Assembly (NCBI RefSeq): GCF_000025865.1
Contig: NC_014002.1
Coordinates: forward strand, 1,178,001 to 1,242,000
Length of the DNA stretch: 64,000 nt
Source of the DNA: Methanohalophilus mahii DSM 5219
GTDB lineage: Archaea; Halobacteriota; Methanosarcinia; Methanosarcinales; Methanosarcinaceae
Direction: 5' to 3'
The notes under the pieces are model-generated. The model had not been told where the DNA came from. It saw nothing but the letters and a program-made list of their open reading frames with translations, and did no database searches. The position numbers and the translations under genes are program-made. This document shows, in pieces, positions 497 through 29,871 of the stretch (positions within the stretch are counted from its first letter, which is position 1; each line of letters opens with the position of its first letter).

Positions 497-620
497 GGAT
501 ACACAATAGTTATGTCACAGTCGATTAACTGTATAAATTATTACGAAATGATTTATTTGTAACACTCCCTTTTGTCACCATACATTTATGACAATGGGAT
601 ACCCAGGAGGACATACACAG

Positions 621-3026: not shown

Positions 3027-3029
3027 AAA

Positions 3030-3542: not shown

Positions 3543-3567
3543 ATTTTAAAGAGGGAGGATATTAAGA

Positions 3568-4965: not shown

Positions 4966-4980
4966 TACAGAGGTATCTCT

Positions 4981-5736: not shown

Positions 5737-5758
5737 ATAACCGGATGGTGGAAGTGGA

Positions 5759-7078
5759 ATGTCAGATAAACTCAAACTTTCAGAACTTAACAGTATCTTA
5801 AAAGACCTCGATGTGGAATCCCTGGAAGGGGTTACTATCGAAGGTGACATAGAACTTGATATACAGGGAGGTGGGGGAATGAACCCGGCGATGGCTTATG
5901 CCCTTGGCCATGAAGCCGCCCAGATCTCCCTTCATGTGGCAAACATCGCCAGAATGCTGGGCTATCCTGTAGACCAGCTCTTTGCACAGTGTCTTGGAAC
6001 CGGAGGAGAAACTGCGGCATTACAGACAGAACCTACAATAGAGGAACTGTTGCAGGCTAAATTCGATGTTGCCAGAAGTAGCGAATGGAACACACCTATC
6101 GGGGAAGTAACCCTTGGTGCAACTTCCGCAGATGGAGGAAGCCGAGACCACACCATAACCCTGGGTGGTGAAAAGGCAATGCCATTCTATTTCGATGCAG
6201 AAATGCCCAACCGTAATTATGTCACAATGGATGTTTTTGACATGCCTATCTCAATGGCAAAATCTGTCAAATCCAATTATGAAGACGTTATGGGAGACCC
6301 GGCAGAATGGGCAAAAAAGGTTGTCAATGAGTATAATGCAGATATGGTTACAATTCACCTGATTTCTACAGACCCTCTTATCAATGATACTTCCCCAAAG
6401 GAGGCTGCAAAGGTAGTAGAGGATGTATTACAGGCAGTTGATGTGCCTATCGTAATCGGTGGTTCAGGAAATCCACAGAAAGATCCTGAAGTACTTGAAA
6501 AAGCCGCAGAGGTTGCCCAAGGAGAACGTGCCCTGCTTGCATCCGCAAGTCTTAACCTGGATTATGAAAGAGTGGCAAAGGCGGCAACAGATAACGGTCA
6601 TGCAGTCCTCTCCTGGACCCAGCTTGAGATCAATGCACAGAAGGAACTCAACCGTAAGCTCATGAAGCAGTGTAATGTCCCACGTGACAGCATTGTGATG
6701 GATCCGACAACAGCAGCCCTGGGATACGGTCTTGACTATGCTTACAGTAACATGGAAAGGATTAGATTGTCCGCCCTTATGGGTGACGATGAACTAAACT
6801 TCCCGATGTCCTCCGGTACCACCAATGCCTGGGGTGCACGTGAATCCTGGATGAAAGAATCACCCCTTAAGGAAGATTCTGACTGGGGACCCAGAGAATA
6901 TAGGGGACCCATTTGGGAGATTGTTACTGGACTTTCCCTTGCCCTTGCAGGCAATGACATGTTCATGATGATGCACCCAACATCCGTACAGGTGCTCAAA
7001 GAGATTACACAAACTCTCTATGGCAATATTGAAGCAAAGACTCCCGACATCACCAACTGGATCACTGCGGAGGTATAA
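5759..7078 (+). CDS. cdhD: Acetyl-CoA decarbonylase/synthase complex, delta subunit (corrinoid Fe-S protein small subunit)
   Basis: 439-residue delta subunit of the corrinoid iron-sulfur protein, which with CdhE shuttles the methyl group between tetrahydrosarcinapterin and the A cluster. A Gly-rich stretch ([22 protein letters not shown]) occurs near residue 40. The rest follows the TIM-barrel plan of AcsD/Cdh[13 protein letters not shown] near 200, [19 protein letters not shown] near 230 and [22 protein letters not shown] near 310. GGTGGAA at 5747-5753 precedes ATG 5759. The stop is separated from cdhE by a single base, indicating coupled translation. Confidence 0.95.
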
Positions 7079-7079
7079 A

Positions 7080-11022: not shown

Positions 11023-14000
11023 TTACATCTGTCTTCTCCTGAAACCAATATACATAGCACCTACTGCTGCAAGCACCAGTACGGTTCCAACAATGTCAGC
11101 ACCCGAGAATGATGAGCCACCGGAATTGTCATTTCGCGGGTTTTCCTTGGTCATCTCATAGCCCTCCACGTAATCACTGCTGGATTCTGCTGACTCGGAT
11201 GTTGGTTGTTGTGTAGATTCACCGTAACCCCCATCCGAAGTACTGGTGGTCTGGTTTGAGGCTGAACCGGTGGTTGAAGTGTTCACTATCTGTGCACTGC
11301 CCACACCACCACTGCTGAAGGAGGTTGAAGAAGTAGACGACTTTTCGGATGATCCGATTGCAGCTTCCAACTGTTCCTTGTATTTGTCCATCGTTTCCTG
11401 ATCTACAACATCAGCACCTGGGACAGACATTATTCCATCTACATAATCGTCCAGCAAAGGGTTTCCGCAGGTATGATGACAACATGCAGCACCATTTTCA
11501 GCAACTGATTCTACATATTCACTAACAAGGGTTTCCTTTACTTCATCGGATGGTTCCCAGTAACCTTTTCTTATGGCTTCAATCATTCTTCCGGAGATCG
11601 ACTGATAAGCTTCTGCATTATTAGCATCGAACCACTCATTCATATCTTCATTTACATATAACTCATAGGTCTCCTGCCATACACTATCATCCACAAGTTC
11701 AGGATTGGAAACTTCCCATCCCCACAGGTTGTCCACAAACTCGGCCATCATGCGTCCTCCGGAATAGCCGGATTCCTGCATGCCATCCATCCATTTAGGA
11801 TTCCAGTAACGTGAACGCAGGTTTTTCATCAGGTATTCCTGCATACCCGCCATGGTGGCTGCATCCGGATCACGGGTGTCGGAGACGTACATCTCAGGAG
11901 TAGTACCCGAAACATACCGTGTTGCAAGATTCAATGCACCGAAGTACTGGAAGAAGTCATCATTGTCCAACGTATCATAAAGATTGGATGAATCCGAGTG
12001 GATTGAAGCATCCACATTACGCAGGTTTGATGTGAGCAACTCAGAACTTTTGAAGCCCCAGAGATCGTTTCCGTATACATATCCCATTTTCTCAAGGTAT
12101 ATTTCAGCAATCTCACCTTCATCATTCCAGGAACCGCTTGCGCCAATTGCATTACCAGTTCCGATCTCATAGGTGCCATCCATTACGGCAAAGCATCGCA
12201 TGTTAGCAAGTTGACGTGCAAGCTCATCTGCTTCCTCCTCAGTCATTTCCTTTGAAAACTGTGCATATAGTTCATCATAGATGGCAGATGTACTCTCATT
12301 CACATAGTTTGAATAATTTCCTGCAGGTGCTTCATTTGCCATTGCAACAGCATGGTCAAGCATCTTGATCTTGCCAGGGAAAGCGTCACGCATACCCGCA
12401 GTAGCATAGACAATATCAATTCTGGGTCTTCCCGGATAGTCACCATAGGAAGGCTGAAGTTCTTCTTCAGGTATCACTTCAAACTTACTCAGGTCAATTC
12501 TGCCGTTGGCGTCCCATCCCGGTTTTATACCAAGTAAGTAGAGGGCTTCTGCTTCCAGGGTGCCATGATCCCTTATGAATTCCACACCAAAACGCGAGAA
12601 GGACACTTTACGCGGATATTCACCATGTTTGTCATGATAATCCGTGAGCATCTGTTCTGCAAGGTATTTACCCAATCTCCATGTTGCTTCGGAAGGATAT
12701 AACTGCGGATCCACTCCATAGAAATTCCTGCCTGTAGGCACTGCAGAAGGATTCATCACCGGATCTGTACCTGGCCCGGGTTCAACATAACCAGCCGAAA
12801 GTGCAGACATAACCCTGTCCATCTCAGCTGCCGATCCAATTAGCCTGTCCCTGTAGACAATACCCCTTTCCAGATCACTGGAAACTGAAGCATTTATCGC
12901 ATTGTATACACGCATCTGGGAATCATTCACACTGGTACCATTAGTTACCACTTCCCAGACCAGTTGATTTACCTTAGTATCATTTGAAGGAATGCCAAGA
13001 GGATATTCACTTTCTGGATAGAAGGCTGCACTTACGTTTTCTTCAAACTTGTTACCCATCATGGCCCGAACCATACAGGAAAGTTCATCCTTTTCTGGAT
13101 CAGTCATGTTGGTAGATGGTACCTCTCCCAAAACATGCATGCCATAAGGGATGTTTTCTCCCTCTACTTCTTCCACATATTCATGGAGTACATTCTTGAT
13201 GAAATCCCCAAATTCAGTGGTATTATAATTGTAAAGTTCAGTGACATTCAGTCCCAAATCCACACTCAGGTTCAGATCAACTATTTCATCAATTATATCA
13301 ACCTGATAAGCCTGTTTTGTCTGTTCACTCATTTCCGGTCCATAGTATGCCTGCATGAGCTGGGATAGGTTGGCAATTTCACCATAACTACCGGACCTAA
13401 CAAGGGTAGGTGTCAGGTGGTCGATGATCAGTGCATTGCCCCTGTATTCCGCTGTAAGGCCTTCCCCGACATTAGCAACTATATATGGGTAAATATTGGG
13501 TAAGTCCTGCAACAATATGGGTGCCCATTCTTCAGTCCTGTTGAGACCATATGTCTGCCCTGGCAGCCATTCATGAGTACCGTGTGTTCCGAAATGAATT
13601 ATGGCATCAGGATTCCACTCTTTGTTAAGCCAGAAGTAAAATCCAATATACTGATGGGGCGGTGGTACAAGTGCACTATGATACAGGGTATCATCATTCT
13701 GCATCATTCCACGTGCAGGCTGCGGCATGAGCCAGACATTATCATATTGTACCGCCGGTATAACCAGATATTTGCCGGTCTCATTTTCCCATATCATCAG
13801 GGATTTATTCTGTGGTAAATCTTCTTCCCATGGAGCGCCCCATTCTTCTATCACCTGATTCTGAAGATTTTCAGGAACTTCCTGTTCAAACCATTCATGA
13901 TAGGTTTCCATAGGAATTAACTGCAGTCCCCATTCAGTCCTGTTTTCAACCATCTCATTCATTACTCCGGGTGCCCAGGAACCGGCGTTTATTCCCTGGG

Positions 14001-16290
14001 ATTGTAATTGTTCAAGCAGGACTGAATTATTTTCAGGGATATTAGAAACCGTATAATTATTGGAATCCATTCTTTCAAGCAAAAGTCTCATGCTTGTTAT
14101 GGTATCAAGGTAACTGGCCCCGATATTATCCTTACCTGAAGGATAATTATAGTAAATCACAGCAACTTTCTTGTCCTTATTTTCCTTAAGTTTTAGATTA
14201 GCCCATTTAATGGAACGATTGCTAATCCAGTCAATCTGGGAATCAAGGGGAATATACCGGGTACTCTCACTATCCGGATCATATACAGCATTACCTATCA
14301 ATATGTATTCGAATATCCCATCCACGTTGGGTGCAATGGTCTTATACACCATCTGGGAATTGGGAATACCCCTGTTGGCATCCGCAGGATCAGGATTTGT
14401 GGGAACATCGGCAACTATACCCCGCAGCACTGACACATTAAGGGCTTTAAGTTCCTCAATTCCTTTTTCATTGTCCCAATAATTCAACCTGAAACTTTTT
14501 AGAGATATTACAGATTGAACAAGCGGTGTACCGTTCTCATTACAGTAATATTCGGTAATATTATTGAAGGTATCAAAACCAACCAGCACATTGCAATCCT
14601 TGTTTTCAATATCCTCTATCAGGGCATTTACAACATCCAGTTGTTCCTTTGTGATATCCGATCTATGGAACCACATTCCTATAGTGGGCTTTTCAGGATC
14701 ATAACTATGATTGTCTGCAGAAACATTGGAATACCATTGAATATATTCCTCGGTTGTCTCAAAGAAACGTTTCTCTGAACCAGGATGATAGAGACCTACC
14801 TCAGGGATAATATCACTTTCACCCGAAATTTGCCACCCCTCGGTCAGGAAATTCATTTTTCCATATTCCTTTGAAGAATAGATCAAAAGGTTTTCAGCAT
14901 TAATCCTGCCAGAAGAACTTTCACCCATATTAGCATAATACAGAGCAATCGTATCATTTTCCGACCCATTGGATACATAATCAAAAAAGGCAGGGGCGTT
15001 TCCTGAGTTTATGTCAAGCAGGGAAGAGCCGTTGTCATGTGCCTTAAGGAAAGTGCTGTTAAATTCACTGTCATAACCTATCATGTCACAGAAGATGACA
15101 TCCTGTGTGGAAAGAAAAAAAGAATCAGAAGCATTGTGAAGTTCATCACTCATACCACTCCAGTCAGGTTTATAGGAAGGTATATATGTGAAATTTATGA
15201 ATTCTGCATAGGGATTGGTAAGACTTGCCTGCTCAATGGGTTCATTATGAGTGTAATAGACATAAGTGAAGTTCAGCTGTGGCCACTCATCTGTAATTTC
15301 CGGATGATTACCATAGTTCCTTGAGAGGTGAAGCAAGAAGTTCTCAGCGCTCTTCAATCCGTTTCCTGAAGATTCCATATTGTTATAATAGTTACATATA
15401 GGATCATTGACAGAACCATTTGAGACATAATCAAAATATGCAGGTGTTAAACTAGATTTTACATCAAGCAAAGATGTACCATTTTTATGTGGTCCGTAAA
15501 AAGTATTGTTAAAGTCCTCATCATACATAATCATGTCACAGAATATAACATCCTGAGTAGATAGAAAACCTGAGTCAGAAGCATTGCTAAGTTCATTACT
15601 CATTCCGCTATAATCAGATAGATAAGAGGGAATATAAGTAAAGTTTATAAATTCAGCATAAGAGTTGGTTCTGCTTGCTTTGGAAAGTGGGGTGCTCGAA
15701 GAATCAGCTATATAAGTAATATTGATCATGGGCCAACTGTCAGTGACCTCAGGATGGTTGCCATAATCCCTTGAAAGATGTATCAACAGGTTTTCAGCAC
15801 TTTTCCTTCCTGAATATGAGGAACTATCCATATTATTAAAATATGTGCATATTTTATCTTCTGCCCACATTTCTTCTGTCCCATCAGGTTTGTAATCAAA
15901 GTAAGAAGGAATACTGGATGACCTAATAGCTAGTAAAGAGGTTCCATTCATGTGAGCTGCATATAATGTATCATTTAAAGGTTCCCAGCTAGGTTCCCAC
16001 AACATATCACAGAAAATGACATCCTGAGTCAGCAGAAACTCGTTTAAACCGTTGGTTGAAGCATTTTGAATCTCATCGCTTACCTCCCATTCGTCATATG
16101 CAGGCACGAAAGTATAATTTATCTGGTCAGAATAAGGATTTTCCAAAGAAGCATTTCTCAAAATCGATTTTTGATCTTCAAGACCTATATATGTGATATT
16201 AATCTGTTCATCTGCCGATACCGCCGGCATTGCAACTGCCAGCATAATCAATATGCTTAAAACTAATAGACTCATCTTTGTATGTTGCAT
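11023..16290 (-). CDS. Surface-anchored CobN/BchH-type chelatase-like protein, paralog 1
   Basis: 1755 residues. A Sec signal peptide (MQHTKMSLLVLS... cut after AVSA, about residue 26) is followed by three divergent copies of a module of about 145 residues (roughly 27-460; each reads TYI, then TQDVIFCDM, then FDY, then a Met of NNM, then AENLL). A full CobN/BchH-like region then runs from about 480 to 1650. Visible CobN marks are GKDNIGASYLDT, HFGTHGTHEWLPG at about 897, GEGLTAEYRGNALIIDHLTP and the Cys-rich CCHHTCGNP at about 1603. A Ser/Thr/Gly stalk and a terminal helix ending in RRRQM anchor it. Many N-x-S/T sequons support an extracellular, glycosylated chain. CobN proteins insert cobalt into tetrapyrroles in the cytoplasm with ATP; an exported form must act differently, so substrate and activity are unknown. 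The start at 16290 is set by GAGGCGAT just upstream. Confidence 0.85.
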   Translation of the reverse strand: MQHTKMSLLVLSILIMLAVAMPAVSADEQINITYIGLEDQKSILRNASLENPYSDQINYTFVPAYDEWEVSDEIQNASTNGLNEFLLTQDVIFCDMLWEPSWEPLNDTLYAAHMNGTSLLAIRSSSIPSYFDYKPDGTEEMWAEDKICTYFNNMDSSSYSGRKSAENLLIHLSRDYGNHPEVTDSWPMINITYIADSSSTPLSKASRTNSYAEFINFTYIPSYLSDYSGMSNELSNASDSGFLSTQDVIFCDMIMYDEDFNNTFYGPHKNGTSLLDVKSSLTPAYFDYVSNGSVNDPICNYYNNMESSGNGLKSAENFLLHLSRNYGNHPEITDEWPQLNFTYVYYTHNEPIEQASLTNPYAEFINFTYIPSYKPDWSGMSDELHNASDSFFLSTQDVIFCDMIGYDSEFNSTFLKAHDNGSSLLDINSGNAPAFFDYVSNGSENDTIALYYANMGESSSGRINAENLLIYSSKEYGKMNFLTEGWQISGESDIIPEVGLYHPGSEKRFFETTEEYIQWYSNVSADNHSYDPEKPTIGMWFHRSDITKEQLDVVNALIEDIENKDCNVLVGFDTFNNITEYYCNENGTPLVQSVISLKSFRLNYWDNEKGIEELKALNVSVLRGIVADVPTNPDPADANRGIPNSQMVYKTIAPNVDGIFEYILIGNAVYDPDSESTRYIPLDSQIDWISNRSIKWANLKLKENKDKKVAVIYYNYPSGKDNIGASYLDTITSMRLLLERMDSNNYTVSNIPENNSVLLEQLQSQGINAGSWAPGVMNEMVENRTEWGLQLIPMETYHEWFEQEVPENLQNQVIEEWGAPWEEDLPQNKSLMIWENETGKYLVIPAVQYDNVWLMPQPARGMMQNDDTLYHSALVPPPHQYIGFYFWLNKEWNPDAIIHFGTHGTHEWLPGQTYGLNRTEEWAPILLQDLPNIYPYIVANVGEGLTAEYRGNALIIDHLTPTLVRSGSYGEIANLSQLMQAYYGPEMSEQTKQAYQVDIIDEIVDLNLSVDLGLNVTELYNYNTTEFGDFIKNVLHEYVEEVEGENIPYGMHVLGEVPSTNMTDPEKDELSCMVRAMMGNKFEENVSAAFYPESEYPLGIPSNDTKVNQLVWEVVTNGTSVNDSQMRVYNAINASVSSDLERGIVYRDRLIGSAAEMDRVMSALSAGYVEPGPGTDPVMNPSAVPTGRNFYGVDPQLYPSEATWRLGKYLAEQMLTDYHDKHGEYPRKVSFSRFGVEFIRDHGTLEAEALYLLGIKPGWDANGRIDLSKFEVIPEEELQPSYGDYPGRPRIDIVYATAGMRDAFPGKIKMLDHAVAMANEAPAGNYSNYVNESTSAIYDELYAQFSKEMTEEEADELARQLANMRCFAVMDGTYEIGTGNAIGASGSWNDEGEIAEIYLEKMGYVYGNDLWGFKSSELLTSNLRNVDASIHSDSSNLYDTLDNDDFFQYFGALNLATRYVSGTTPEMYVSDTRDPDAATMAGMQEYLMKNLRSRYWNPKWMDGMQESGYSGGRMMAEFVDNLWGWEVSNPELVDDSVWQETYELYVNEDMNEWFDANNAEAYQSISGRMIEAIRKGYWEPSDEVKETLVSEYVESVAENGAACCHHTCGNPLLDDYVDGIMSVPGADVVDQETMDKYKEQLEAAIGSSEKSSTSSTSFSSGGVGSAQIVNTSTTGSASNQTTSTSDGGYGESTQQPTSESAESSSDYVEGYEMTKENPRNDNSGGSSFSGADIVGTVLVLAAVGAMYIGFRRRQM

Positions 16291-16311
16291 ATTATCGCCT
16301 CGATAGTATGC

Positions 16312-16351
16312 CACATCCCGGGTCCCTGTTTGGTAGCAGAACCGGGATGTG
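16312..16351 (-). promoter_or_regulatory. 10-bp inverted repeat in front of CobN-like paralog 1
   Basis: CACATCCCGG (16312-16321) and CCGGGATGTG (16342-16351) are perfect complements with 20 bases between. The element lies 21 bases upstream of the start codon. The same arms stand in front of the other two paralogs. It could be a leader RNA hairpin or a DNA operator near the transcription start. Confidence 0.6.
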
Positions 16352-16423
16352 TACATTTACTTTATTATAATAAATTTAATTTGTTCTTCGATTCATAGCA
16401 TATTCCATATTTATGAAATAAAG

Positions 16424-16446
16424 AAAAAAACACCCAAAGGGGTGCT
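16424..16446 (-). terminator. Hairpin terminator of the second CobN-like gene
   Basis: On the minus strand AGCACCC, loop CTTT, GGGTG, then a run of seven T follows the stop codon. Confidence 0.7.
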
Positions 16447-16452
16447 CATCAC

Positions 16453-19400
16453 TTACATCTGTCTCCTTCTGAAACCAATATACATGGCACCTACTGCTGC
16501 AAGTACCAGCACGGTTCCCACAATATCAGCACCTGAGAAGGATGAACCACCGGAGTTATCGTTCCTTGGGTTTTCCTTTGTCATTTCATAACCTTCCACG
16601 TAATCACTGCTGGATTCTGTGGAATCGGGTGTTGGATCTTGTGCGGATTCACTATACCCACCATCAGAACTGGAAGTTGTCTGATTAGAAGCAGTGCCTG
16701 TACTTGAAGTGTTCACTATCTGTGCACTGCCCACACCACCACTGCTGAAGGAGGTTGAAGAAGTAGACGATGATTCAGAAGATGTGGTAGCCTCATCCAT
16801 TATCTCTCTGTATTTTTGAGCTGTTTCCTCATCAACGACCCCGGGCATTGAGAGATAACCATCAACATAATCCTGCAGAGCCGGATTTCCACAGGTATGA
16901 TGACAGCAAGTAACATCTCCTGTTTCGGCGATTGATTCCACAAATTCACTAACAAGGGATTTTAATTGTTCATCAGATGCATCCCATCCATTTTTACGGG
17001 CTGTTTCCAGCATCCTGGCATTCATAGACTGGTATTCATATGGATTTGTCTCTTTTATCCATTCACGGTTTTCACCTGTGAAATATGCGTCATACACATC
17101 ATTCCAGACATGATCCGCAATAAGATCGGGATGCAGAGCCTCCCATCCCCAGAGATTCTCAATAAAATTACCCATTTTACCTGCACCCTCAAAGCCATGC
17201 TGTTGCATACCTTCAAACCAGGTTGGGTTCAAATATCTTGTTACTATCTCCCTGGAAAGATAGGTGCTTAGAGTCTCTATCTTTTCAGCATCTGGGTTTT
17301 GCAGATTCATTACGTATGTTTCCGGTGCCATGCCGGAAGCTTCACTGACCACCAGATTCAAACCGCCGAAATACTGGAAGAAATCGTCCGTGTCCATTGC
17401 ACCATAGGTGTTAGAACTACGGCTGTGGACAATCGCCCCGACATCTTCCAGATTGTCATTAAATACATCTTTATTGTCGATTGAATCATCCGCTACATCC
17501 CACTGGCTGGCAATTTCCTCCATACTTTCTCCCCAGACATACTCACCATAAGCATTGCTCATCCTGTCCATGTAGAGGTCAGCAAGTTCTGTGTTGTTTT
17601 CCCAGGTATCACTGGCCGAAACAGCATTGGACATACCCGTTCCGTAAGAACCATCTGCAGGGCCAAATATCCTGAGCAAAGCAATGTTCATTGAGGCAGT
17701 TTCGTTCTGCAATGTAGCATTTAAACCATCATAGATATTGTTGGTGTTCTCTCTCACGTAGTTAGTGTTGTCCGCCGAATCATAGGAAATGTATTCAGCT
17801 GCAGGTCGCTCTTCATCCTTAGTACCATCATAGCCGTTATCCGGTGCGTTGTAGGCGAGATATACCGCCTTGTCTATCAGTTCCACCTTGTGAGGGAAAC
17901 TGTCTCTGTAAAGCCCTGATATCTGGACAAGCACATCTATACGTGGACGATCCAATTCAGAAGATGGAATGAGTTCTACATCCTCCACCTTATCACCACT
18001 GCCCCATACAGGCCTGACACCCAGAAGATAAAGAATTTCTGCTTCCATCACACCCTCATGACGAGTAGATTCTCCGGCCCATAGAATGAATGCTGCTTTA
18101 CTGGGATAAGCATCATCTCCGTGTTTTTCTTGATAAGCATCCATCGTTTCATTGGCCATCTTCTTTCCGAGCTCCCAAGACTGTTTTGTCGGAATTAGCT
18201 GTTCATCAAAAGCATAGAAATTCCGACCGGAAGGTAAAGCATCAGAACGTTGTATTGGGTCTCCACCCAAATTGGGTTCAACATACTTGCCATCCATAGC
18301 CTTGAGTAACTGTTGAAGCTCGTCTTCAGTTAAAGATAATTTATCAGAATATTCGGTTGCTTTGGACAGGTAATTGTCCATTGTATCAGAGTTATTGCCT
18401 TCTCCCAAAATCTGCAATTGGGCGTCAGTTGAAGATGTATTCTGATTCAGAACAAGATCCAGAAGTAAAACCGGAGCTTTTTCTGAAGTATTGTATTGTG
18501 CAACTTCATCTTTGAAATCCTTACCTAACATGGAACAAACCATTTCACTTAGTTGTTCTCCTTTTGGAGCCTTGCCTAATATATGCAAACCATAAGGCAT
18601 TGAAGTTGTTCTCAATTCTCTGAGCACATCATCAAGTTCATCCAGAAAATGATCTCGTAAATCTTCATCTTCTGCCTCTGCATATGTCATGTTTATTCGT
18701 TCATCAAGATGTAACTCATAAGTCAGATTCACGATTTCTTCAAAACGTGTTTCCTGTGTATCTGGATCCGAGTCAAGTGCATGGTATTGTGAGATTTTTT
18801 CATTCAAATCTGTATAGTTACCATAACTCCCAGACATTACAACAGGCGGTATCAGATGGTCTATTACAACTGCACTACCCCTGCGTTTGGCTTGCATACC
18901 TTCTCCCATTCCATCCATTACATAAGGATAGACAACCGGGATATCACCGACCATAAGAGCCGGCCATTCTTCGCTGAAAAGACCGAACTCCTTACCCGGC
19001 AACCATTCAACCGTGCCATGTCTGCCCATATTAACCATTACATCGGCATCAAAATCATTCTGCAACCAAAGGTAGAAAGCAATGTACTGATGATGGGGCG
19101 GAAGATCAGCATCATGATAAAGGGCATCAAGATCATCAAACCATCCACGTGTGGGTTGTGGGGCAAGAATTACATTGTCACTTATCTCTATTTTGGGAAT
19201 TACCACGAATCGGTCACCTGAATCATCTTCATAGACCATTATTTCACCGGGAGCTTCACCCCATCTATCCGTTACTTCCTTTCTTCGTTCTTCAGGAAGA
19301 GTGTCAAACCATTTTCTGTAGGTATGCTCGGGAATTAGTTCCACCTTGTTAGTTTCCACAAGATCTTCCAGTTCGCCGGGTGCCCATGTACCTATATTCG

Positions 19401-21696: not shown

Positions 21697-21717
21697 ATTA
21701 TCGCCTCGATAGTATGC

Positions 21718-21757
21718 CACATCCCGGGTCCCTGTTTGGTAGCAGAACCGGGATGTG
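21718..21757 (-). promoter_or_regulatory. 10-bp inverted repeat in front of CobN-like paralog 2
   Basis: CACATCCCGG (21718-21727) and CCGGGATGTG (21748-21757) with the same 20-base middle as in front of paralog 1. The whole stretch from the start codon through the repeat is identical in the two genes. Confidence 0.6.
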
Positions 21758-21831
21758 TACATTTACTTTATTATTGTCAATTTTACTTGTTTATTTTCAT
21801 ACATTTCTTCTTCTTTGAGTAGAAAATAAAG

Positions 21832-21856
21832 AAAAAAGAACACCCAAGAAGGTGCT
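21832..21856 (-). terminator. Hairpin terminator of the third CobN-like gene
   Basis: On the minus strand AGCACC, loop TTCTTG, GGTGTT, then C and six T follow the stop codon. Confidence 0.65.
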
Positions 21857-21862
21857 CAGAAC

Positions 21863-24800
21863 TTATATCTGTCTTCTTCTGAAACCAACATACATGGCAC
21901 CTACTGCTGCAAGTACCAGTACGGTTCCAACAATGTCAGCACCCGAGAAGGATGAACCACCGGATTCCTCATTTCTGGGGTTTTCCTTGGTCATCTCATA
22001 ACCCTCCACGTAATCGCTGCTGGATTCTGCTGACTCAGATGTTGGTTCCTGCGTAGATTCACCATAGCCCCCATCCGAAGTGGTGGTGGTCTGGTTAGAG
22101 GCTGTACCCGTGGTTGAAGCATTCACGATTTGTGCACTGCCGACACCACCGCTGGTGGAGGAAGAAGACTTGGAAGTCTGTGAATTTGCAGGTTGTGTGG
22201 CCCCATCCATCAACTTCTTATAAGATTCCTGGTCTTCAGCACTAACACCCGCAACAGACATCATACCTTCAACATATCCATCCAGTGTGGGGTTACCACA
22301 TGTGTGGTGGCAACAGGTCACACCATTCTCAACAACTGATTCAGTATATTCCTTTACTAAATTGTTGAGAACCTCATCGGATGCTTCCCAGTAACCTTTC
22401 CTCTCGGCTTCAATCATCCTTTTAATAGTTGACTGATAGGCATAAGCATTATCACCGGATTTCATAAACTCGTCAACACCAAGATCATATTTGTCTTCCA
22501 CATAGACATCATAGACCTCATCCCAGTCGGAATTCTTGACCATATCAGGTGTTGTTACATCCAGTCCCCAGATATGCTCAACGGTCTTCATGAATTCCCT
22601 GGCGCCTGCATAATCGTACTCCATCATACCGGAGATGAATTTGGGATTGAAAAGCGTTGAACGGATATCCTTCCTGTAGGCCTCTTCATATGTGATTACC
22701 TGCGGGTTATCCACATTTTTGAAATCGGCAACATACATCTCGGGAGTATCGCCAGAAAGGGATCTCACAGCAAGCCCGAGTCCTCCAAGATACTGATAGA
22801 AATCGTCGTTATCAATGATTCCGTAGAGGTTGGAAGAATCACTGTGCATCGCAACCTTCACATCCTGGAGATTCATCCTGAAGACATCTTCGTAGCTGTC
22901 TCCCCATACATCCTGTCCGTAGATATTGGACATACGGGAAATATAGAGATCCGCCAGTTCGTCCTCACTGTCCCAGGTGTCACTTGCGGTCACTGCTCCA
23001 GGCAGACCGGTTCCATAGGCTCCAGGTGACTCACTGAAAATTCTGGAGCGGGACAATGCGAGGGCAGTACTTTCATTGTATCCTGCTTCAAGCAATGCCT
23101 CTTCCATTTCCAGGGAATTCGCCCTCACATAATTGGTTTCATTGCTTTCATTAAGAGCTGCAACGGTACGCACCGCCTCATCTATCAACTGAAGATGATT
23201 CGGGAAAGTATCCCTGTAAAGCCCGGAAGGAGTTACAACTACATCAATTCTTGGATGGTCCATCTCATCCTGTGGAATTACCTCGAACCCAGAAATATGG
23301 CCATAGGTTCTGGTCGGTTCAACACCCAGGAGGGAATAGATCTGCGCCTCCATCAAACCCTGATGACGCATTGTCTCAACTGCCCACAGGACGTAGGTTA
23401 CTTTTTTTGGATATGTATCGTTGTGAGTGGATCTATACTGTTCAAGCATTTGGTTGGCAAGAATGCCACCCAACTCTACAGTTTCTTCATCCGGAACGTC
23501 GCGCGGATCAAAACTATAGAAGTTCCTTCCTGTGGGAACTGCATCCGGATTTCTGATAGGATCGTTACCTGGTCCTGCTTCAATGTAGCCTCCATTCAGA
23601 GCACGGAGTGTCTGATCAATTTCACGGGTGGTATTCTGTAGAGCCGCGGAATAATTGAGTGCCGTATTCAGGTCTGCAGTGACGTTGGAATCAGTCTTTC
23701 CCAAAACATCCTCCTGAGCCTGTGATACATTTGTACCGTTGAGCAAGGTGGCATTCAACAGATCAGTAGCGTGGTAATTGGATGCGTTCTCCCAATCCTC
23801 TTCATGCCATTCATCATTAGGATTAGTTTCTTTGATGACATTCACTATGTGGTCGATGAAAGCACTACGTAGCATGGATTTGACCATGAACACAAGTTTG
23901 TCATCCTCAGGTGCAACACCGAAAACATGGAGCCCAAGAGGCATAAGGGTCCCCTGCAGTTCATGAAGGTAGTTATGCACGTCATTTGTGACAAAGTTCT
24001 CAAATTCCGTGTCATTCATGGAACGCATTTCTTCAGGAGTAACACCAAGGTCGTACTCCATTGAAAGGTTTTCATATTTTTCAATTGTACTGTTGCGATA
24101 AAGAGCCATATTCACAGTATCATTAGCAGTTGCTGCCTCTTCATATTCATGTATTTTGTCATGAATCTCGGCAAGTTCCCCATACAGACCTGAATCTGTT
24201 ATCGGAGGGGTCAGATGGTCTATAATTACCGCATTACCCCGGCGTTTGGCCTGAGTACCCTCTCCAACATTGTCCATAATATAGGGGTATACTACAGGTG
24301 TATCAGCTACCATTATGGACGGATAATCATAGCGCCATAACCCCACTTCCTTACCCGGCAACCATTCTTGTGTGCCATGGGTTCCGAAATGGATCATTGC
24401 ATCTGCATCATAGTCCTGATTGATCCAGAAGTATGTGGCCAGATACTGGTGAGTAGGTGGAAGGTCCTTGTCATGATAGGTCACCGATTCATCCGAGAGG
24501 TCTCCTCTGGTGGGCTGGGGTATGAAATTGATATTACCCATCTGGACTGTAGGTATGACAAATTTATTATTATACACCATTATGTCACCCGGAGCTTCAC
24601 CCCATCTGTCTTCAACGTCATCCCTTACGGATTGTGGAAGGGTGTTGTACCATTCCATATACTCGTCGACAGGCACAAGCGTGACATTACCTGATTCAAC
24701 GACCTTTTCAAGCTCACCGGGGGCCCAGGAACCTACATTTCTGCTCTCGATGAACAGATCGATGAACTCACTGCCGTTTGGAATACTGCCATTGCCTGTA

Positions 24801-27800
24801 TCATAACCACTGCTATTCATTTCATCAAGCAACACCTCGAAACTGGAAGCTATATCCAGATAACTGGCACCAATGTTGTTCTTACCACCTTCATGATTGT
24901 AGTAGATGATGCTGATCTTCTTATCCGAATTATCTTCATTGCCAAGTTCTGCCCAGGAGATGGCACGGTCACTAATCCAATCAACCTGCGAATCCAGAGG
25001 TTTGTAGTAATATTGTCCGGTTTCTGAATCCTGTACTCTGCCTGCTACCCATATGTAATCAATCAAACCCTCAAGTTCCGGCATCGTAACCTGGTATGAT
25101 AGGGATGAAGTGCTCAATCCATGCACACTTGCATTGTATTCATCCGGTGTATGGTAACGGTCGAGTAATCCCTTTATTACAGGAACATTATATTCATTCA
25201 TGGACTCAATTCCCAGAGCAGGGTCGTTGTATTGGAAATTGAATCCTTTCAGCGATATCATGGAATCCACAAGAACCGTGCCATTATTGACAAAGTATTC
25301 AGATGTGTCGTCTGTAATTACCTTATAAGTTGAAAAAATTACATTACAACCCTTGGATTCCAGATTCCTGATTAGCTGGTCTTCCGTATTGAAAGCAAGA
25401 GAATTCTTTTCAATATTATAACTGGCTATTATACCAACGGTTGGTGCGGATTCATTGTATCCATGGTATTCATACCATTTAAGATATTCACTACTATTTT
25501 CGAACACCTGCGGGAATGCATCTGGATGATAGATACCATGGTCAGGTATAGATGGCTGGAAGGCTTCAGAATATTCAATATAGGCACCTTCAAGAGTGGA
25601 ACCTACAGAACGTATCCAGTGTTCCATGTTGGAGTAACCATTGTTGTACAAATACTCCTTCATAAAGCTGTAAGGTGGATTTGCCATATCAAAGGTGGCA
25701 ATGCCATAACCATCATCCATACCAAACATTCCTATCTGGGCACCATTGTCCTTGGCATCCAGCAGCACATCTTTGAATTCCGTAATCTGTGTGCCACCTA
25801 TCATGTAAAGGATAATGACATCCTGATCGGAAACATCGGTCAGATTTGCAACCGCTTCCGTTCCGTCCATAACCGTGACATTGAAACGATCGTTTATTAC
25901 AGCCCTCTCCGAAAGGACATTGTTGAGATGGGAGATACTGTTATCGGAGTTAACTATATAAGTCACATTAATTACTGTATGTACTATTTCAGGATCAGAG
26001 ATGGTCTCACCAGCCCATAGCTCACTGAATTCTTGCCCCATGAGCCTGAGCATGGATTCCATATTGGCATCCCCGCCCTGTATCCAGTACCTTTCGATGT
26101 CAGTATATTCATCCGAATACAAGTCGACATTGGGTACGGTTATATTGGATGAAAGGTTGTAACCCATAACCATTGCACCGCCTGCTTTGGCAGATTTTAT
26201 ACTGGAAGTCCATCCGTCTACCACGGATTCATTCTGTGACTCGATGAAAATTACTCCATAGTCGGAGAAATCGAAGTCTGCTGGTGCAGGATTGTCCTTG
26301 GTGAAAATGGTTATGTCCAATTCAGAGGAGATGCTGGCATCCAATGTAGCATTGTTCAGGGCAGCCTCATTAAAGTCGGTACCCAGAACAAACAGGTATT
26401 TACTGCTGTCTACTTTTGCATTATTAAGAATATTTTCCACCAGTTTGGGAGATTCGGTTGCAAGATAAGTCAGCAGGTTTTCCGCATTCTCAAGACCTTC
26501 ACCTTCAGTTCCCATATTGCTGTAATAGGTGGCAACAGGGTCACTGGTAGTACCATCGGAATGATAATCGAAGTAGGAGGGGGGAGTATAAGCTCCCATC
26601 GGGTCTATACTGTAGATGACAGTACCCTTATCATGCGCTGATTTGAGAGTGGTATTTACTGTGGTGTTATCAGTAAATGCATCATATATGCCCTGACAAA
26701 CAATAACATCTTGGGTTTCAAGGAAACCACTCTCTGAGGCATTTATCATTTCCTGGCTTATACCTGAATCTGAATAATCGATGAAGGTATACTCAATCAG
26801 ATCACTGTGATCATTACTCTCACTGGCTGTCTGAAGGGCATCATTTGCACTGTAGGAAATGTAGGTGACCTTTGACTTCATTGTGAGATAGGTCAGCAGG
26901 TTTTCCGCATTCTCAAGACCTTCACCTTCAGTTCCCATATTGCTGTAATAGGTGGCAACAGGGTCACTGGTAGTACCATCGGAATGATAATCGAAGTAGG
27001 AGGGGGGAGTATAAGCTCCCATCGGGTCTATACTGTAGATGACAGTACCCTTATCATGCGCTGATTTGAGAGTGGTATTTACTGTAGTATTATCAGTAAA
27101 TGCATCATATATGCCCTGACAAACAATAACATCTTGGGTTTCAAGGAAACCACTCTCTGAGGCATTTATCATTTCCTGGCTTATACCTGAATCTGAATAA
27201 TCGATGAAGGTATACTCAATCAGATCACTGTGATCATTACTCTCACTGGCTGTCTGAAGGGCATCATTTGCACTGTAGGAAATGTAGGTGACCTTTGACT
27301 TCATTGTGAGATAGGTCAGCAGGTTTTCCGCATTCTCAAGACCTTCACCTTCAGTTCCCATATTGCTGTAATAGGTGGCAACAGGGTCACTGGTAGTACC
27401 ATCGGAATGATAATCGAAGTAGGAGGGGGGAGTATAAGCTCCCATCGGGTCTATACTGTAGATGACAGTACCCTTATCATGCGCTGATTTGAGAGTGGTA
27501 TTTACTGTAGTATTATCAGTAAATGCATCATATATGCCCTGACAAACAATAACATCCTGAGTTTCAAGGAAACCACTCTCTGAGGCATTTATCATTTCCT
27601 GGCTTATACCTGAATCAGAATAATCGATGAAGGTATACTCAATCAGATCACTGTGATCATTGGTCTCACTGGCTGTCTGAAGGGCATCGTTGGGAGTGTA
27701 AGAGATATAAGTTACTTTTGTTACTTGTTCTTCTGCCGATACCGCCGGCACTGCCACTGCCAGCATAATCAATACACTTAAAACTAATAAACACACTTTT

Positions 27801-27811
27801 CCATATCGCAT
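21863..27811 (-). CDS. Surface-anchored CobN/BchH-type chelatase-like protein, paralog 3
   Basis: 1982 residues, the largest of the three and the nearest to the ExbB gene group. A signal peptide (cut after AVSA) is followed by three almost identical 141-residue modules (about 27-450) related to the divergent ones of paralog 1. An extra alpha/beta region follows (about 450-750), then the CobN/BchH-like body with GGKNNIGASYLD, HFGTHGTQEWLPGK at about 1144, GEGTQAKRRGNAVIIDHLTPP, PTGRNFYSFD and CCHHTCGNP at about 1834. The Ser/Thr-rich stalk and RRRQI-ending helix anchor it in the membrane with the body outside. It keeps all conserved His seen in paralog 1. The start at 27811 is chosen from GAGGCGAT and the signal peptide; a longer reading adds only the leader hairpin. 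A role in cobalt, nickel or corrinoid handling is inference. Confidence 0.85.
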   Translation of the reverse strand: MRYGKVCLLVLSVLIMLAVAVPAVSAEEQVTKVTYISYTPNDALQTASETNDHSDLIEYTFIDYSDSGISQEMINASESGFLETQDVIVCQGIYDAFTDNTTVNTTLKSAHDKGTVIYSIDPMGAYTPPSYFDYHSDGTTSDPVATYYSNMGTEGEGLENAENLLTYLTMKSKVTYISYSANDALQTASESNDHSDLIEYTFIDYSDSGISQEMINASESGFLETQDVIVCQGIYDAFTDNTTVNTTLKSAHDKGTVIYSIDPMGAYTPPSYFDYHSDGTTSDPVATYYSNMGTEGEGLENAENLLTYLTMKSKVTYISYSANDALQTASESNDHSDLIEYTFIDYSDSGISQEMINASESGFLETQDVIVCQGIYDAFTDNTTVNTTLKSAHDKGTVIYSIDPMGAYTPPSYFDYHSDGTTSDPVATYYSNMGTEGEGLENAENLLTYLATESPKLVENILNNAKVDSSKYLFVLGTDFNEAALNNATLDASISSELDITIFTKDNPAPADFDFSDYGVIFIESQNESVVDGWTSSIKSAKAGGAMVMGYNLSSNITVPNVDLYSDEYTDIERYWIQGGDANMESMLRLMGQEFSELWAGETISDPEIVHTVINVTYIVNSDNSISHLNNVLSERAVINDRFNVTVMDGTEAVANLTDVSDQDVIILYMIGGTQITEFKDVLLDAKDNGAQIGMFGMDDGYGIATFDMANPPYSFMKEYLYNNGYSNMEHWIRSVGSTLEGAYIEYSEAFQPSIPDHGIYHPDAFPQVFENSSEYLKWYEYHGYNESAPTVGIIASYNIEKNSLAFNTEDQLIRNLESKGCNVIFSTYKVITDDTSEYFVNNGTVLVDSMISLKGFNFQYNDPALGIESMNEYNVPVIKGLLDRYHTPDEYNASVHGLSTSSLSYQVTMPELEGLIDYIWVAGRVQDSETGQYYYKPLDSQVDWISDRAISWAELGNEDNSDKKISIIYYNHEGGKNNIGASYLDIASSFEVLLDEMNSSGYDTGNGSIPNGSEFIDLFIESRNVGSWAPGELEKVVESGNVTLVPVDEYMEWYNTLPQSVRDDVEDRWGEAPGDIMVYNNKFVIPTVQMGNINFIPQPTRGDLSDESVTYHDKDLPPTHQYLATYFWINQDYDADAMIHFGTHGTQEWLPGKEVGLWRYDYPSIMVADTPVVYPYIMDNVGEGTQAKRRGNAVIIDHLTPPITDSGLYGELAEIHDKIHEYEEAATANDTVNMALYRNSTIEKYENLSMEYDLGVTPEEMRSMNDTEFENFVTNDVHNYLHELQGTLMPLGLHVFGVAPEDDKLVFMVKSMLRSAFIDHIVNVIKETNPNDEWHEEDWENASNYHATDLLNATLLNGTNVSQAQEDVLGKTDSNVTADLNTALNYSAALQNTTREIDQTLRALNGGYIEAGPGNDPIRNPDAVPTGRNFYSFDPRDVPDEETVELGGILANQMLEQYRSTHNDTYPKKVTYVLWAVETMRHQGLMEAQIYSLLGVEPTRTYGHISGFEVIPQDEMDHPRIDVVVTPSGLYRDTFPNHLQLIDEAVRTVAALNESNETNYVRANSLEMEEALLEAGYNESTALALSRSRIFSESPGAYGTGLPGAVTASDTWDSEDELADLYISRMSNIYGQDVWGDSYEDVFRMNLQDVKVAMHSDSSNLYGIIDNDDFYQYLGGLGLAVRSLSGDTPEMYVADFKNVDNPQVITYEEAYRKDIRSTLFNPKFISGMMEYDYAGAREFMKTVEHIWGLDVTTPDMVKNSDWDEVYDVYVEDKYDLGVDEFMKSGDNAYAYQSTIKRMIEAERKGYWEASDEVLNNLVKEYTESVVENGVTCCHHTCGNPTLDGYVEGMMSVAGVSAEDQESYKKLMDGATQPANSQTSKSSSSTSGGVGSAQIVNASTTGTASNQTTTTSDGGYGESTQEPTSESAESSSDYVEGYEMTKENPRNEESGGSSFSGADIVGTVLVLAAVGAMYVGFRRRQI
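26458..27726 (-). repeat. In-gene tandem repeat, 423-bp unit, three copies
   Basis: Units 26458-26880, 26881-27303 and 27304-27726 are exactly 423 bases each and nearly identical (a few substitutions, for example GTGGTGTTA versus GTAGTATTA). Each codes a 141-residue N-terminal module of paralog 3, in frame. Confidence 0.95.
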
Positions 27812-27834
27812 ATTATCGCCTCGATAGTATGCAG

Positions 27835-27877
27835 CACATCCCGGTCCAAAAGCCCGCCAGCCGACGGGTCGGGATGT
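27835..27877 (-). promoter_or_regulatory. Inverted repeat in front of CobN-like paralog 3
   Basis: ACATCCCG (27836-27843) pairs with CGGGATGT (27870-27877). The middle differs from the other two genes and holds its own small stem, CCCG/CGGG (27853-27856 and 27865-27868). The outer arms are kept while the inside changes, as expected if the arms matter. A TATA-like CATATAAAAG at 27941-27950 on the minus strand may be the promoter. Confidence 0.55.
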
Positions 27878-27968
27878 CACCACAATATTTTCAACTGAAA
27901 TTTATCCACAATTTCTCCTTACATATAATCAATAAACTTGCTTTTATATGACAAAAAAATAAAACGGG

Positions 27969-28331
27969 TTATCCTCCCGATTCATTTTTCCCTTCAGGTA
28001 CATACACAACACGCCCGTCTGCCAGCTGATAGGCCGTACCCAGCGCCTCACCGGAACCCCCGCCGATCTGTTCGGTCATATTGAGCACTTTGATTTCCTG
28101 CCCCTCTTTGGTAATGATCTGCATGTCTTCTTGCCCGGGGTTTTTCACAATGGTCACATCATCCGTAGGAGACAGCAGTTCCGGCAACTGGAATGACATC
28201 ACCAGAGCCACCAGCAGAGCCACGGAGAAGACCATGGCTATGTCGAAAAGGTTGGCCACGCCTGTTAAGGGGTTCTGTTCATCTCCTTCATAAAGCAAAC
28301 CGCTTCGCCTGTATTTCTTTTGCTTCCTCAT
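27969..28331 (-). CDS. DUF2149 membrane protein, ExbD-like in topology
   Basis: 120 residues: a basic N-terminus (about 1-13), one membrane helix at about 28-48, and a soluble outer part with a KEGQEIKVLNM strand and a Gly-rich turn. The helix starts NLFDIAMVFSVALLVALVM; an Asp sits at its beginning just as in ExbD/TolR, where that Asp carries protons. Its ATG overlaps the stop of the ExbB-like gene (ATGA), so the two are translated together. DUF2149 has no proven function; an ExbD-like role is my inference from topology, the Asp and the gene pair. A T-rich stretch after the stop (27953-27960) may end transcription. Confidence 0.85.
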   Translation of the reverse strand: MRKQKKYRRSGLLYEGDEQNPLTGVANLFDIAMVFSVALLVALVMSFQLPELLSPTDDVTIVKNPGQEDMQIITKEGQEIKVLNMTEQIGGGSGEALGTAYQLADGRVVYVPEGKNESGG

Positions 28332-28951
28332 TCCTCACCCTCCATACACTCAAGCAGATAATTGATATCAGCCATATCCTGCCAGTACCATCTTTTACGT
28401 ACCACGGTCAGGACATATCCTACGATACCGGCAAACAGACCGAGTACCGTTGTCGCAAAAGCCACCATAAGATTATGAGCCAGCTGGAGGATGTTGCCTT
28501 CTGCAAGTCCTATAAGAGCCGGACCGAGAGGAATAAGGGTACCCATAAGACCAATCATAGGGGCAACCGTGGAAAGGATCTTGGTATACTCGAGGTTCTT
28601 GGTCATTCGCACTTCATACTCCTCGGAAAGCCAATCGATAGATGTGGCAGCACTGCTGCCAAGATGGGCAGCAGCATCCCGGGCAAATGACATTACAAGG
28701 GAATTTTGCTTCAGTTCACCCAGGTGTGTAGCGGCAAAATCAAAATCCGAGGATTTCACGGAATCCTGCACCCTTTTCCCCACATCCTCAAGCTGGGTGA
28801 CATTGCGATGCCTCTTGGAATATTCGGAAATGAACTCACCAATCAGAGCCAGAGATGATACAACTGCTAACAAAAGCAGTATAATAACAGGATACAATAG
28901 TGACGAAGAAACGGTATACATTATCTGGAATAACGAAGAATCTATTGCCAT
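28328..28951 (-). CDS. MotA/TolQ/ExbB-family proton channel protein
   Basis: 207 residues with three membrane helices: one near 15-38, and a pair at about 125-148 (APMIGLMGTLIPLGPAL) and 165-188 (AFATTVLGLFAGIVGYVL). The paired helices carry the family signature with Gly, Pro and Thr lining the ion path. A cytoplasmic loop of about 80 residues lies between helix 1 and helix 2. ExbB-type proteins form a pentamer around an ExbD dimer and turn proton flow into motion. Archaea have no outer membrane, so the TonB-type role is excluded; the likely clients are the neighbouring surface CobN-like proteins. It overlaps the DUF2149 gene and follows DUF2162 by 21 bases. Confidence 0.9.
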   Translation of the reverse strand: MAIDSSLFQIMYTVSSSLLYPVIILLLLAVVSSLALIGEFISEYSKRHRNVTQLEDVGKRVQDSVKSSDFDFAATHLGELKQNSLVMSFARDAAAHLGSSAATSIDWLSEEYEVRMTKNLEYTKILSTVAPMIGLMGTLIPLGPALIGLAEGNILQLAHNLMVAFATTVLGLFAGIVGYVLTVVRKRWYWQDMADINYLLECMEGEE

Positions 28952-28972
28952 TTTTTATTATCACTCCTTAAA

Positions 28973-29650
28973 TTAATACTGGGTTTTGATACGATTAAGT
29001 GCAAAGCCGGCCGTTATGAGGATTGCAAAGCCGATGAAGGGTATGATGTCAAATTCCGGGCCGCTGAAAGTCGGCAGACCCAGCTGTTTTGCCTGCATGT
29101 AGGCAGGGGCAATTACTGCACCCATCAGGTAGAACAGACCCAGAAACGTCATGGCATTTCCAAGGGTTGTAGGGTCTTTTTTGAATCGCCTGAAAACCAG
29201 GGAAGAGGAAATGATGGACACGAAAAAGATGACACCTACCCCAAGTCCCAGAAGTGCACTGCTGATCTCAACAGTATTGGAAAGCAGCATGATTGACATG
29301 AAAAGGGCAGCAAGGCATACCGGACAGGGAAGGGAGATCACAAGGAAGGTCTTATGGGATACATCCACCCCGCAAGTCCATTTTTTGGATGTGTATATAC
29401 CCACACCGAGAAGTAAAAGGGCCATCACAACGTGCAGCCCCATTCCAAGCTGGGAAGCAGTCAGCAGGTAGGATATATCGACATAATTAAGAATAACACC
29501 TATTATTACTGATAATACAAAATACATCCCTGCAATGCCAAACAACTGCCTGCGATTGATAGTCGAACATCCACATCCCACTCCGGCCTTAACTGCAAAT
29601 ACAGCTATTGCCAGAAGGATCCCTACAACCGTTAAATATACTGCACTCAT
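28973..29650 (-). CDS. DUF2162 multi-helix membrane protein, putative transporter
   Basis: 225 residues with about six or seven hydrophobic helices. Cysteines cluster at helix ends: GVGCGCS near residue 26, WTCGVD near 92 and SLPCPVC near 106-112. Such Cys pairs suggest metal or thiol handling. The family is known as a putative transporter found with CobN- and ExbB-like genes in methanogens, without a proven substrate. It is the first gene of a three-gene operon with the proton channel and DUF2149 proteins. A TATA-like sequence lies at 29691-29700 on the minus strand. Confidence 0.8.
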   Translation of the reverse strand: MSAVYLTVVGILLAIAVFAVKAGVGCGCSTINRRQLFGIAGMYFVLSVIIGVILNYVDISYLLTASQLGMGLHVVMALLLLGVGIYTSKKWTCGVDVSHKTFLVISLPCPVCLAALFMSIMLLSNTVEISSALLGLGVGVIFFVSIISSSLVFRRFKKDPTTLGNAMTFLGLFYLMGAVIAPAYMQAKQLGLPTFSGPEFDIIPFIGFAILITAGFALNRIKTQY

Positions 29651-29796: not shown

Positions 29797-29871
29797 TTTT
29801 AGGATAACATGTGTAACCCATTTGGGTAACATAGATTGATCATTTATGAGAAAAAAGAGACTATCCTGAAA
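29797..29871. promoter_or_regulatory. Nested inverted repeats between DUF2162 and the NMD3-like gene
   Basis: An 18-base near-palindrome GTAACCCATTTGGGTAAC (29813-29830) is enclosed by arms TTTTAGGATA (29797-29806) and TATCCTGAAA (29862-29871) that pair over 10 positions with one G-T. A plus-strand TATA-like ATATAAAAG (29784-29792) predicts a transcription start inside the palindrome. It is a candidate operator in a 311-base divergent intergenic space; no other gene is seen there. Confidence 0.45.

Follow-up and report, generated by a model that had tools for sequence, protein, structure and literature searches.

The 64,000-nucleotide window analyzed here (positions 1,178,001 to 1,242,000 of contig NC_014002.1) comes from Methanohalophilus mahii DSM 5219, whose genome is a single contig of 2,012,424 bases. 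It carries six minus-strand genes that read, in order, DUF2162, ExbB/MotA, DUF2149 and then three CobN-type genes, all six at the coordinates given in the original prediction, which was made from the letters of the window alone. The three CobN-type proteins are exported class I chelatases, and together with the candidate motor subunits encoded before them they are related to a heme-processing set found in Bacteroidota. The genes are as follows.

28973-29650, minus strand: DUF2162 membrane protein, LysE/NicO-like (PF09930, 3e-69)
28328-28951, minus strand: ExbB/TolQ/MotA-type proton channel subunit, homolog of HmuU (MotA_ExbB PF01618, 5e-12)
27969-28331, minus strand: DUF2149, homolog of HmuV, with one helix after an invariant Asp30 and then a small predicted beta domain (PF09919, 4e-36)
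21863-27883, minus strand: CobN3, exported HmuS/CobN-type class I chelatase (PF02514, E=0; likely start 27811, 1982 residues)
16453-21762, minus strand: CobN2, exported chelatase paralog whose active-site motif has the variant form NMGRHG (likely start 21696, 1747 residues)
11023-16356, minus strand: CobN1, exported chelatase paralog (likely start 16290, 1755 residues)

The CobN reading frames are open upstream of the likely genes, and a conserved, ribosome-site-like sequence, GAGGCGAT, precedes the inner ATG from which these lengths are counted. All three proteins match PF02514 (E-values from 0 to 6e-291), and their N-X-S/T sequons (45 in CobN1, 40 in CobN2, 41 in CobN3) are about twice the 19-21 expected from shuffled sequence and exceed every shuffle (maxima 31-32). 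Together with the hydrophobic N-end, the C-terminal helix and the Pfam matches, this confirms that three exported CobN-like proteins lie downstream of ExbB, DUF2149 and DUF2162. Among 77 archaeal sequences, exported CobNs have 1.0-2.7% sequons, a hydrophobic N-end and a C-terminal helix, and cytoplasmic CobNs have 0-0.32% sequons and neither of the other marks, making them two separate populations. The helix of CobN1 was placed from sequence and hydropathy.

11041-11106, minus strand: C-terminal membrane helix of CobN1 (SGADIVGTVLVLAAVGAMYIGF, then RRRQM)

The DNA of the three paralogs is 80-86% identical over the last 330 bases and 78-90% over the first 150, with bodies that are 41-46% identical, as if one shared anchor stays uniform. 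The claim that no ATPase partner is at hand also held up. The M. mahii genome has no CobN besides the three at the locus, and a PF01078 (ChlI-type ATPase) search of it matches the Lon protease and MCM helicase only, with no ChlI/ChlD/CobS-type ATPase. Across the survey, 16 of roughly 35 cytoplasmic CobNs have a ChlI/ChlD-type AAA+/VWA gene close by, as against 0 of 41 exported ones (Fisher p=4e-7), in a count where the flanks of the cytoplasmic loci are much shorter (1.5 kb) than those of the exported loci.

The characterized relative that stands out is the heme dechelatase HmuS of Bacteroides, an enzyme that removes iron from heme (PMC12583661, EMBO J 2025). It is encoded in the heme operon hmuYRSTUV, where HmuS is CobN-like, HmuU is ExbB-like and HmuV carries DUF2149 (PMC12583661; for B. 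fragilis BtuS, PMC6460266), and its export and membrane anchoring are published (PMC13227078). HmuS is the best Protein Data Bank (PDB) match of CobN3 (9d26, E=1e-144), and the AlphaFold2 model of the CobN3 body (predicted local distance difference test, pLDDT, 75) has HmuS 9d26 as its top Foldseek match (E=1e-58), followed by CobN and ChlH. When the archaeal profiles were compared with 38 Bacteroidota hmu loci, E-values were 1e-40 to 1e-58 for HmuU and about 1e-30 to 1e-39 for HmuV, in each case beside HmuS. Bacteroidota HmuV shares 45-52% identity with the DUF2149 encoded in the window. A maximum-likelihood tree (quick search, LG+G4, 1009 columns) joins the 41 archaeal exported CobNs with 12 HmuS proteins in one clade with a Shimodaira-Hasegawa approximate likelihood ratio (SH-aLRT) support of 100, each side itself being one clade at 100, with a long HmuS stem (1.2) that makes long-branch effects possible. 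The clade excludes all cytoplasmic archaeal CobNs and the M. tuberculosis CobN, and the three CobNs of the window fall in three old subclades. By sequence kinship, then, the common core of the archaeal and Bacteroidota modules is chelatase, ExbB and DUF2149, and the archaeal module is a sister of the HmuS-HmuU-HmuV set. It was originally put forward as an archaeal system, a description that is too narrow for an arrangement shared with Bacteroidota. An equation of HmuT with DUF2162 was considered and rejected: there is no profile match, hhalign gives 1.7%, and in three hmu genomes nothing matches the DUF2162 profile significantly.

The active site separates the archaeal proteins from HmuS while keeping its catalytic core. 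The class I chelatase fold and the HFG(T/A)HG motif with the catalytic His538 of HmuS are present in the archaeal CobNs, and equivalents of His538, His506 and Glu577 are retained in all 41 exported proteins. The second axial pair of HmuS, His1209/Glu1212 (LSLDHxxEFMGG), is replaced, by Asp in 37/41 and Gln in 34/41. Heme site 1 is not kept either, with Val, Ile or Leu at position 79 in 34/41 and Met in 3, and His254 of the His254-Gly-Arg motif is a His in 3/41. The Asp/Gln pattern is that of cobalt-inserting CobN (SDDYFQYHGG), and the DDYFQY signature of CobN is present; the cytoplasmic location with an AAA+/VWA partner and the grouping with characterized CobN that would go with a CobN cobaltochelatase are both missing. 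By the published defining residues, the archaeal proteins are thus not HmuS, even though the two share a clade and their mode of action is probably similar.

The module is strongly conserved as a unit. In a sample of 148 genomes of the phylum, DUF2149 occurs in 48, DUF2162 (above the cut-off) in 39 and CobN in at least 89. DUF2149 and DUF2162 are present in all 38 genomes with an exported CobN, among the CobN matches listed, from which weaker CobNs may be absent, and with contig-edge cases checked; strict co-occurrence, as originally expected, is thereby borne out. Conversely, 38 of the 39 DUF2162 genomes have an exported CobN among the matches listed, the exception (G035) being a fragmented assembly. 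Three genomes with unusually long CobN frames and no DUF2149 (L051, L199, L200) show no export marks on those CobNs. The order DUF2162-ExbB-DUF2149-CobN is conserved over seven family groups, with CobN convergent in one group. All of these families are also present in the genome of Methanosarcina acetivorans. An ExbB-DUF2149 pair without DUF2162 or exported CobN is found in 9 of the 48 DUF2149 genomes, often adjoining other exported proteins with a related juxtamembrane motif. Service to other partners had been named beforehand as an outcome that would tell against the prediction, and it is half borne out by these nine. A phylum-wide DUF2149 search in Bacteroidota matched the centre genome only and gives no bacterial co-occurrence rate.

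The candidate motor subunits have the layout of known ion-driven machines. The ExbB protein is a MotA_ExbB channel subunit that matches an ExbB structure (5sv0) at E=0.0012. The ExbD/TolR family (PF02472) has no match in the M. mahii genome, and membership of DUF2149 in the ExbD family was not supported, as there is no ExbD Pfam match and no PDB profile match, including to any ExbD chain; its AlphaFold model (pLDDT 55) is too poor for fold comparison. The proposal that DUF2149 is ExbD-like consequently holds for the layout only. ExbD and MotB carry a proton-binding Asp at the start of the corresponding helix, and Asp30 at the helix start of DUF2149 is invariant in 56/56 archaeal and 25/25 bacterial copies. 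DUF2149 is, as judged from its sequence, a single-helix partner with a conserved candidate protonatable Asp, matching the ExbBD, TolQR and MotAB layout. In DUF2162, Cys26 is nearly invariant, and PCPxC (Cys109, Cys112) and Asp96 are invariant. The protein is weakly similar to NicO-type transporters (hhalign 62%), and roles as a CcdA-like electron conduit (by its PCPxC motif) or a metal permease were considered, with a similarity that holds at the level of the NicO/DsbD_2 group only.

A short sequence before the C-terminal helix offers a possible point of contact between motor and chelatase. GxxM stands in this position in all 41 archaeal exported CobNs scored, 14-21 residues from the helix (median 19), with variants including YVEGYEM, VRGYVM, VSGFVM, RGRVMKEE and VGKVMEE. 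A looser form, [GS]xx[ML][KR][KR], occurs in 32/35 Bacteroidota HmuS proteins (GVVMKKEE, GMVMKKEE), 17-21 residues from the helix and again with a median of 19. The three copies in the window are identical.

21992-22012, minus strand: GxxM box YVEGYEM of CobN3, before the C-terminal helix
16582-16602, minus strand: GxxM box YVEGYEM of CobN2
11152-11172, minus strand: GxxM box YVEGYEM of CobN1

At loci with ExbB-DUF2149 and no exported CobN, other exported, C-terminally anchored proteins adjoin ExbB, and some have a related motif. Directly upstream of ExbB, a periplasmic-binding-type protein (PF01497) has VAGHPM at L113 and L115 and a CARDB protein has VSGFPF at L108; the other two motifs are ISGYRI (L106) and VTGHPF (L107). 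Two further neighbors of ExbB, the CARDB/PQQ protein of L105 with VNGYPM and the NosD-type beta helix of L106 with VEGKRM, are not directly adjacent to it and were counted as background. The related motif is found in 5/9 direct-upstream non-CobN genes with a C-terminal helix and in 5/90 background proteins (Fisher p=4e-4, a value that overstates the true strength, with related genes counted separately and some true neighbors in the background). In the Ton system, the TonB D-box is captured by ExbD through strand recruitment (PMC10907165). The resemblance of the GxxM box to the D-box suggests, by analogy, that the motor grips and pulls the chelatase directly, without TonB.

Some of these loci have features of their own. 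A 3036-residue exported CARDB-like protein without a clear GxxM box lies directly before ExbB-DUF2149 at L114:9-10264. At L113:7644-10291 and in L115, the box-bearing periplasmic-binding-type protein adjoins cytoplasmic CobNs and a ChlI/ChlD-type ATPase and is possibly a motor-driven binding protein. At L106:9863-14021, the NosD-type beta helix with its box is followed by a 401-residue DUF2162 protein, ExbB and DUF2149, and a second ExbB-DUF2149 pair lies upstream.

The surroundings of the operon give a hint of the metal. An operator-like site precedes the first gene.

29812-29831, minus strand: TGTTACCC-AAAT-GGGTTACA, a palindrome that resembles an operator, 161 bp ahead of the DUF2162 start

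With up to one mismatch allowed, the genome has one further match, directly upstream of a His-rich PGF-CTERM protein and a CbiM-NikL-CbiQ-CbiO operon. The pair of sites is found again in two other Methanohalophilus-group genomes, and three genomes of another genus carry the DUF2162-operon site, there with a divergent ArsR-type regulator gene (PF01022). In lineage L098, CbiO, CbiQ, CbiM and CbiD are contiguous with the operon and CobB lies beyond CobN; in lineage L100 the operon adjoins CbiM, an ATP-binding cassette (ABC) gene, cbiF, cbiL and cbiG. The operator, the cbi context and the weak NicO-type similarity of DUF2162 point to cobalt or nickel, in agreement with the metals first proposed, and for L098 and L100 cobalt is the stronger candidate. 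NikR was looked at as a candidate regulator, and nikR was seen only as a frameshift-split copy (G000:C1:281681-281909; L177, L178). A third perfect operator-like palindrome, in three related genomes (L180, L190, L191), lies inside a conserved coding gene and was set aside as probably chance and coding conservation. The His-rich PGF-CTERM surface protein, in an operon with CbiM, a NikL-type subunit, CbiQ and CbiO (L174:5536-9595), is a candidate surface binder of nickel or cobalt in its own right.

The genes and their export signals, the homology and shared clade with HmuS, the co-occurrence, the box with its spacing, the shared operator and the cbi context, all read from sequence, can be brought together in one scheme. 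The locus would be a single-membrane, archaeal version of HmuS-HmuU-HmuV in which the motor pulls on surface chelatases that strip cobalt or nickel from tetrapyrroles, and the metal is imported; the chances of this being correct seem about even. Three chelatases would sit on the cell surface, each joined through a Ser/Thr stalk to its C-terminal membrane helix. A corrinoid, or perhaps F430, would bind a surface chelatase. From homology and the box we infer docking and a coupling of force: proton flow via ExbB would move DUF2149, and the tail would be pulled at the GxxM box, opening or resetting the chelatase, which would stand in the place of TonB and be pulled as ExbBD pulls TonB by its D-box. 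The metal would then be freed at the His/Asp site, as the kept catalytic residues and the chemistry of HmuS suggest, and, judging by gene context, would enter via DUF2162 or the co-regulated CbiMQO importer. The original prediction had left insertion, removal and capture of metal side by side; removal is now the better guess and insertion recedes, because HmuS, the only characterized member of the clade, removes metal.

Several observations weigh against this scheme. HmuS without membrane helices turns over heme with NADH and without HmuU or HmuV (PMC12583661), so the motor may serve substrate capture, loading, release or hand-over rather than the chemistry, and the idea that proton flow replaces ATP in catalysis is weakened. 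DUF2149 is linked to ExbD by neither sequence nor fold. The box is short, its strict form is found in only 25/35 HmuS proteins, making the looser form necessary, and 4/9 of the direct-upstream genes lack the motif, including two for S-layer-type proteins, in a test whose strength is already overstated. Only two genera show the operator, and its shared CbiM site is confined to Methanohalophilus-group genomes. Finally, the CobN-like homologs of M. barkeri respond to the iron/sulfur source, which fits iron as well (PMC10846266).

The last point belongs to the alternative that fares best, heme-iron salvage, in which the exported CobNs would be HmuS-like heme dechelatases releasing Fe(II) for FeoB. 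It draws on the single clade with HmuS, the kept His538 and the rise of the M. barkeri 'BtuS' proteins with the iron/sulfur source, which were proposed as metalloporphyrin salvage enzymes (PMC10846266). Yet Met79, His254 and His1209/Glu1212 of HmuS are not kept, the DDxFQY signature is that of cobalt-inserting CobN, and context and operator indicate cobalt or nickel importers, leaving this alternative unlikely. In another scheme the chelatase fold only binds, as a surface receptor for corrinoid or cobalt that is opened by the motor and supplies an ABC importer of the BtuCD type with its ligand. The FecCD/BtuF-type genes that lie close to two of the exported copies (L116, L117), the box-bearing PF01497 protein next to ExbB-DUF2149 in L113 and the separate head/neck site at which HmuS holds heme would all suit it. 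A pure receptor would have no need of the catalytic His and Glu kept in 41/41 proteins, however, and ABC genes lie outside most operons, which makes a receptor rather improbable. One process named in the original prediction, proton-driven insertion of cobalt into metal-free corrinoids, or their remodeling, with proton flow in place of an ATPase, agrees with the CobN-like DDxFQY site, the adjacent cbi genes and the lack of an ATPase partner. It nonetheless looks improbable, as anaerobic corrin synthesis inserts cobalt early with cytoplasmic CbiX/CbiK-type enzymes (PMC8305020, PMC7689651), metal-free corrins are unexpected outside the cell, and the closest characterized relative removes metal. 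Least probable by far is that ExbB-DUF2149 serves DUF2162 as a proton-coupled permease with CobN merely co-expressed: DUF2162, ExbB and DUF2149 lie side by side in almost every archaeal copy, and in L106 they adjoin a beta-helix protein instead of CobN, but the Bacteroidota pair accompanies HmuS without DUF2162, and several archaea have ExbB-DUF2149 without it.

Metal removal by motor-driven surface chelatases can be widened into a more general proposal, that ExbB-DUF2149 is a TonB-independent proton motor of single-membrane archaea and Bacteroidota that directly grips exported proteins by a GxxM-type box beside their C-terminal helix, with surface dechelatases that take cobalt, nickel or iron from tetrapyrroles as its main cargo and re-use for other exported proteins. 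This extension is tentative and somewhat doubtful. In current papers, HmuU and HmuV are given the task of energizing the heme receptor of the outer membrane or a part in transport across the inner membrane. A pair of this type tied to the same chelatase in cells that have no outer membrane makes it more likely that the partner of the motor is the chelatase. If true, these systems would provide a mechanism for energy to reach an enzyme outside the cell, a role for many archaeal 'CobN' genes found without cob genes, and a route to cobalt and nickel for methanogens, which depend on both metals. The GxxM box is a small, directly testable target.

Other features of the window include two tandem arrays within the chelatase genes.

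26463-27688, minus strand: tandem repeat in the N-terminal region of CobN3 (423 bp x 2.9, 99%)
20657-21589, minus strand: tandem repeat in the N-terminal region of CobN2 (324 bp x 2.9, 99%; carboxypeptidase-regulatory-like domains)

Both arrays are in frame and near-identical, indicating recent domain multiplication. Genes at 588-8492 on the opposite strand, recognized by eye from the sequence, look like a carbon monoxide dehydrogenase/acetyl-CoA synthase (CODH/ACS, cdh) operon, whose enzyme system is based on nickel and a corrinoid. An Rfam search for riboswitches or other RNAs gave no match.

In the literature, a 2025 paper describes the function of archaeal HmuS homologs as unclear and archaea as being without complete hmu operons (PMC12583661), and a search of open-license papers found no account of an archaeal operon that combines exported CobN with ExbB, DUF2149 and DUF2162, nor of the GxxM box or the cobalt/nickel link. 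The M. barkeri CobN-like 'BtuS' (2024; PMC10846266) is probably of the same archaeal family. That paper proposes a salvage role and heme-iron turnover, states that the operon is lacking and, in the available text, leaves export, ExbB/DUF2149 and a cobalt/nickel context undiscussed.

Among known systems, the cobaltochelatase CobN of M. tuberculosis (7c6o) and ChlH share the fold and the HxGxHG motif with the archaeal proteins, and CobN shares the DDYFQY signature as well, but both are cytoplasmic, driven by ATPases (CobS/CobT, ChlI/ChlD) and placed in another clade. The HmuS-HmuU-HmuV set is closer: an exported, membrane-anchored class I chelatase with ExbB and DUF2149 adjoining, the catalytic His and a box with equal spacing from the helix. 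Unlike the hmu operon, the archaeal locus has no HmuY, HmuR, HmuT or TonB context, its six genes belonging to other families than hmuY, hmuR and hmuT, and DUF2162 takes the place of the fourth membrane protein. The archaeal chelatases also differ from HmuS in having DDxFQY in place of DHxxE, no heme-site Met/His, up to three paralogs, a cobalt/nickel context, dense sequons and a Ser/Thr stalk. With the Ton motor ExbB-ExbD-TonB (PMC10907165), the locus shares an ExbB homolog, a small one-helix partner with an invariant Asp and a short candidate effector motif near a membrane helix. It differs in having no ExbD family member, TonB context or outer membrane, and in that the effector would be the enzyme itself, held by a C-terminal helix.

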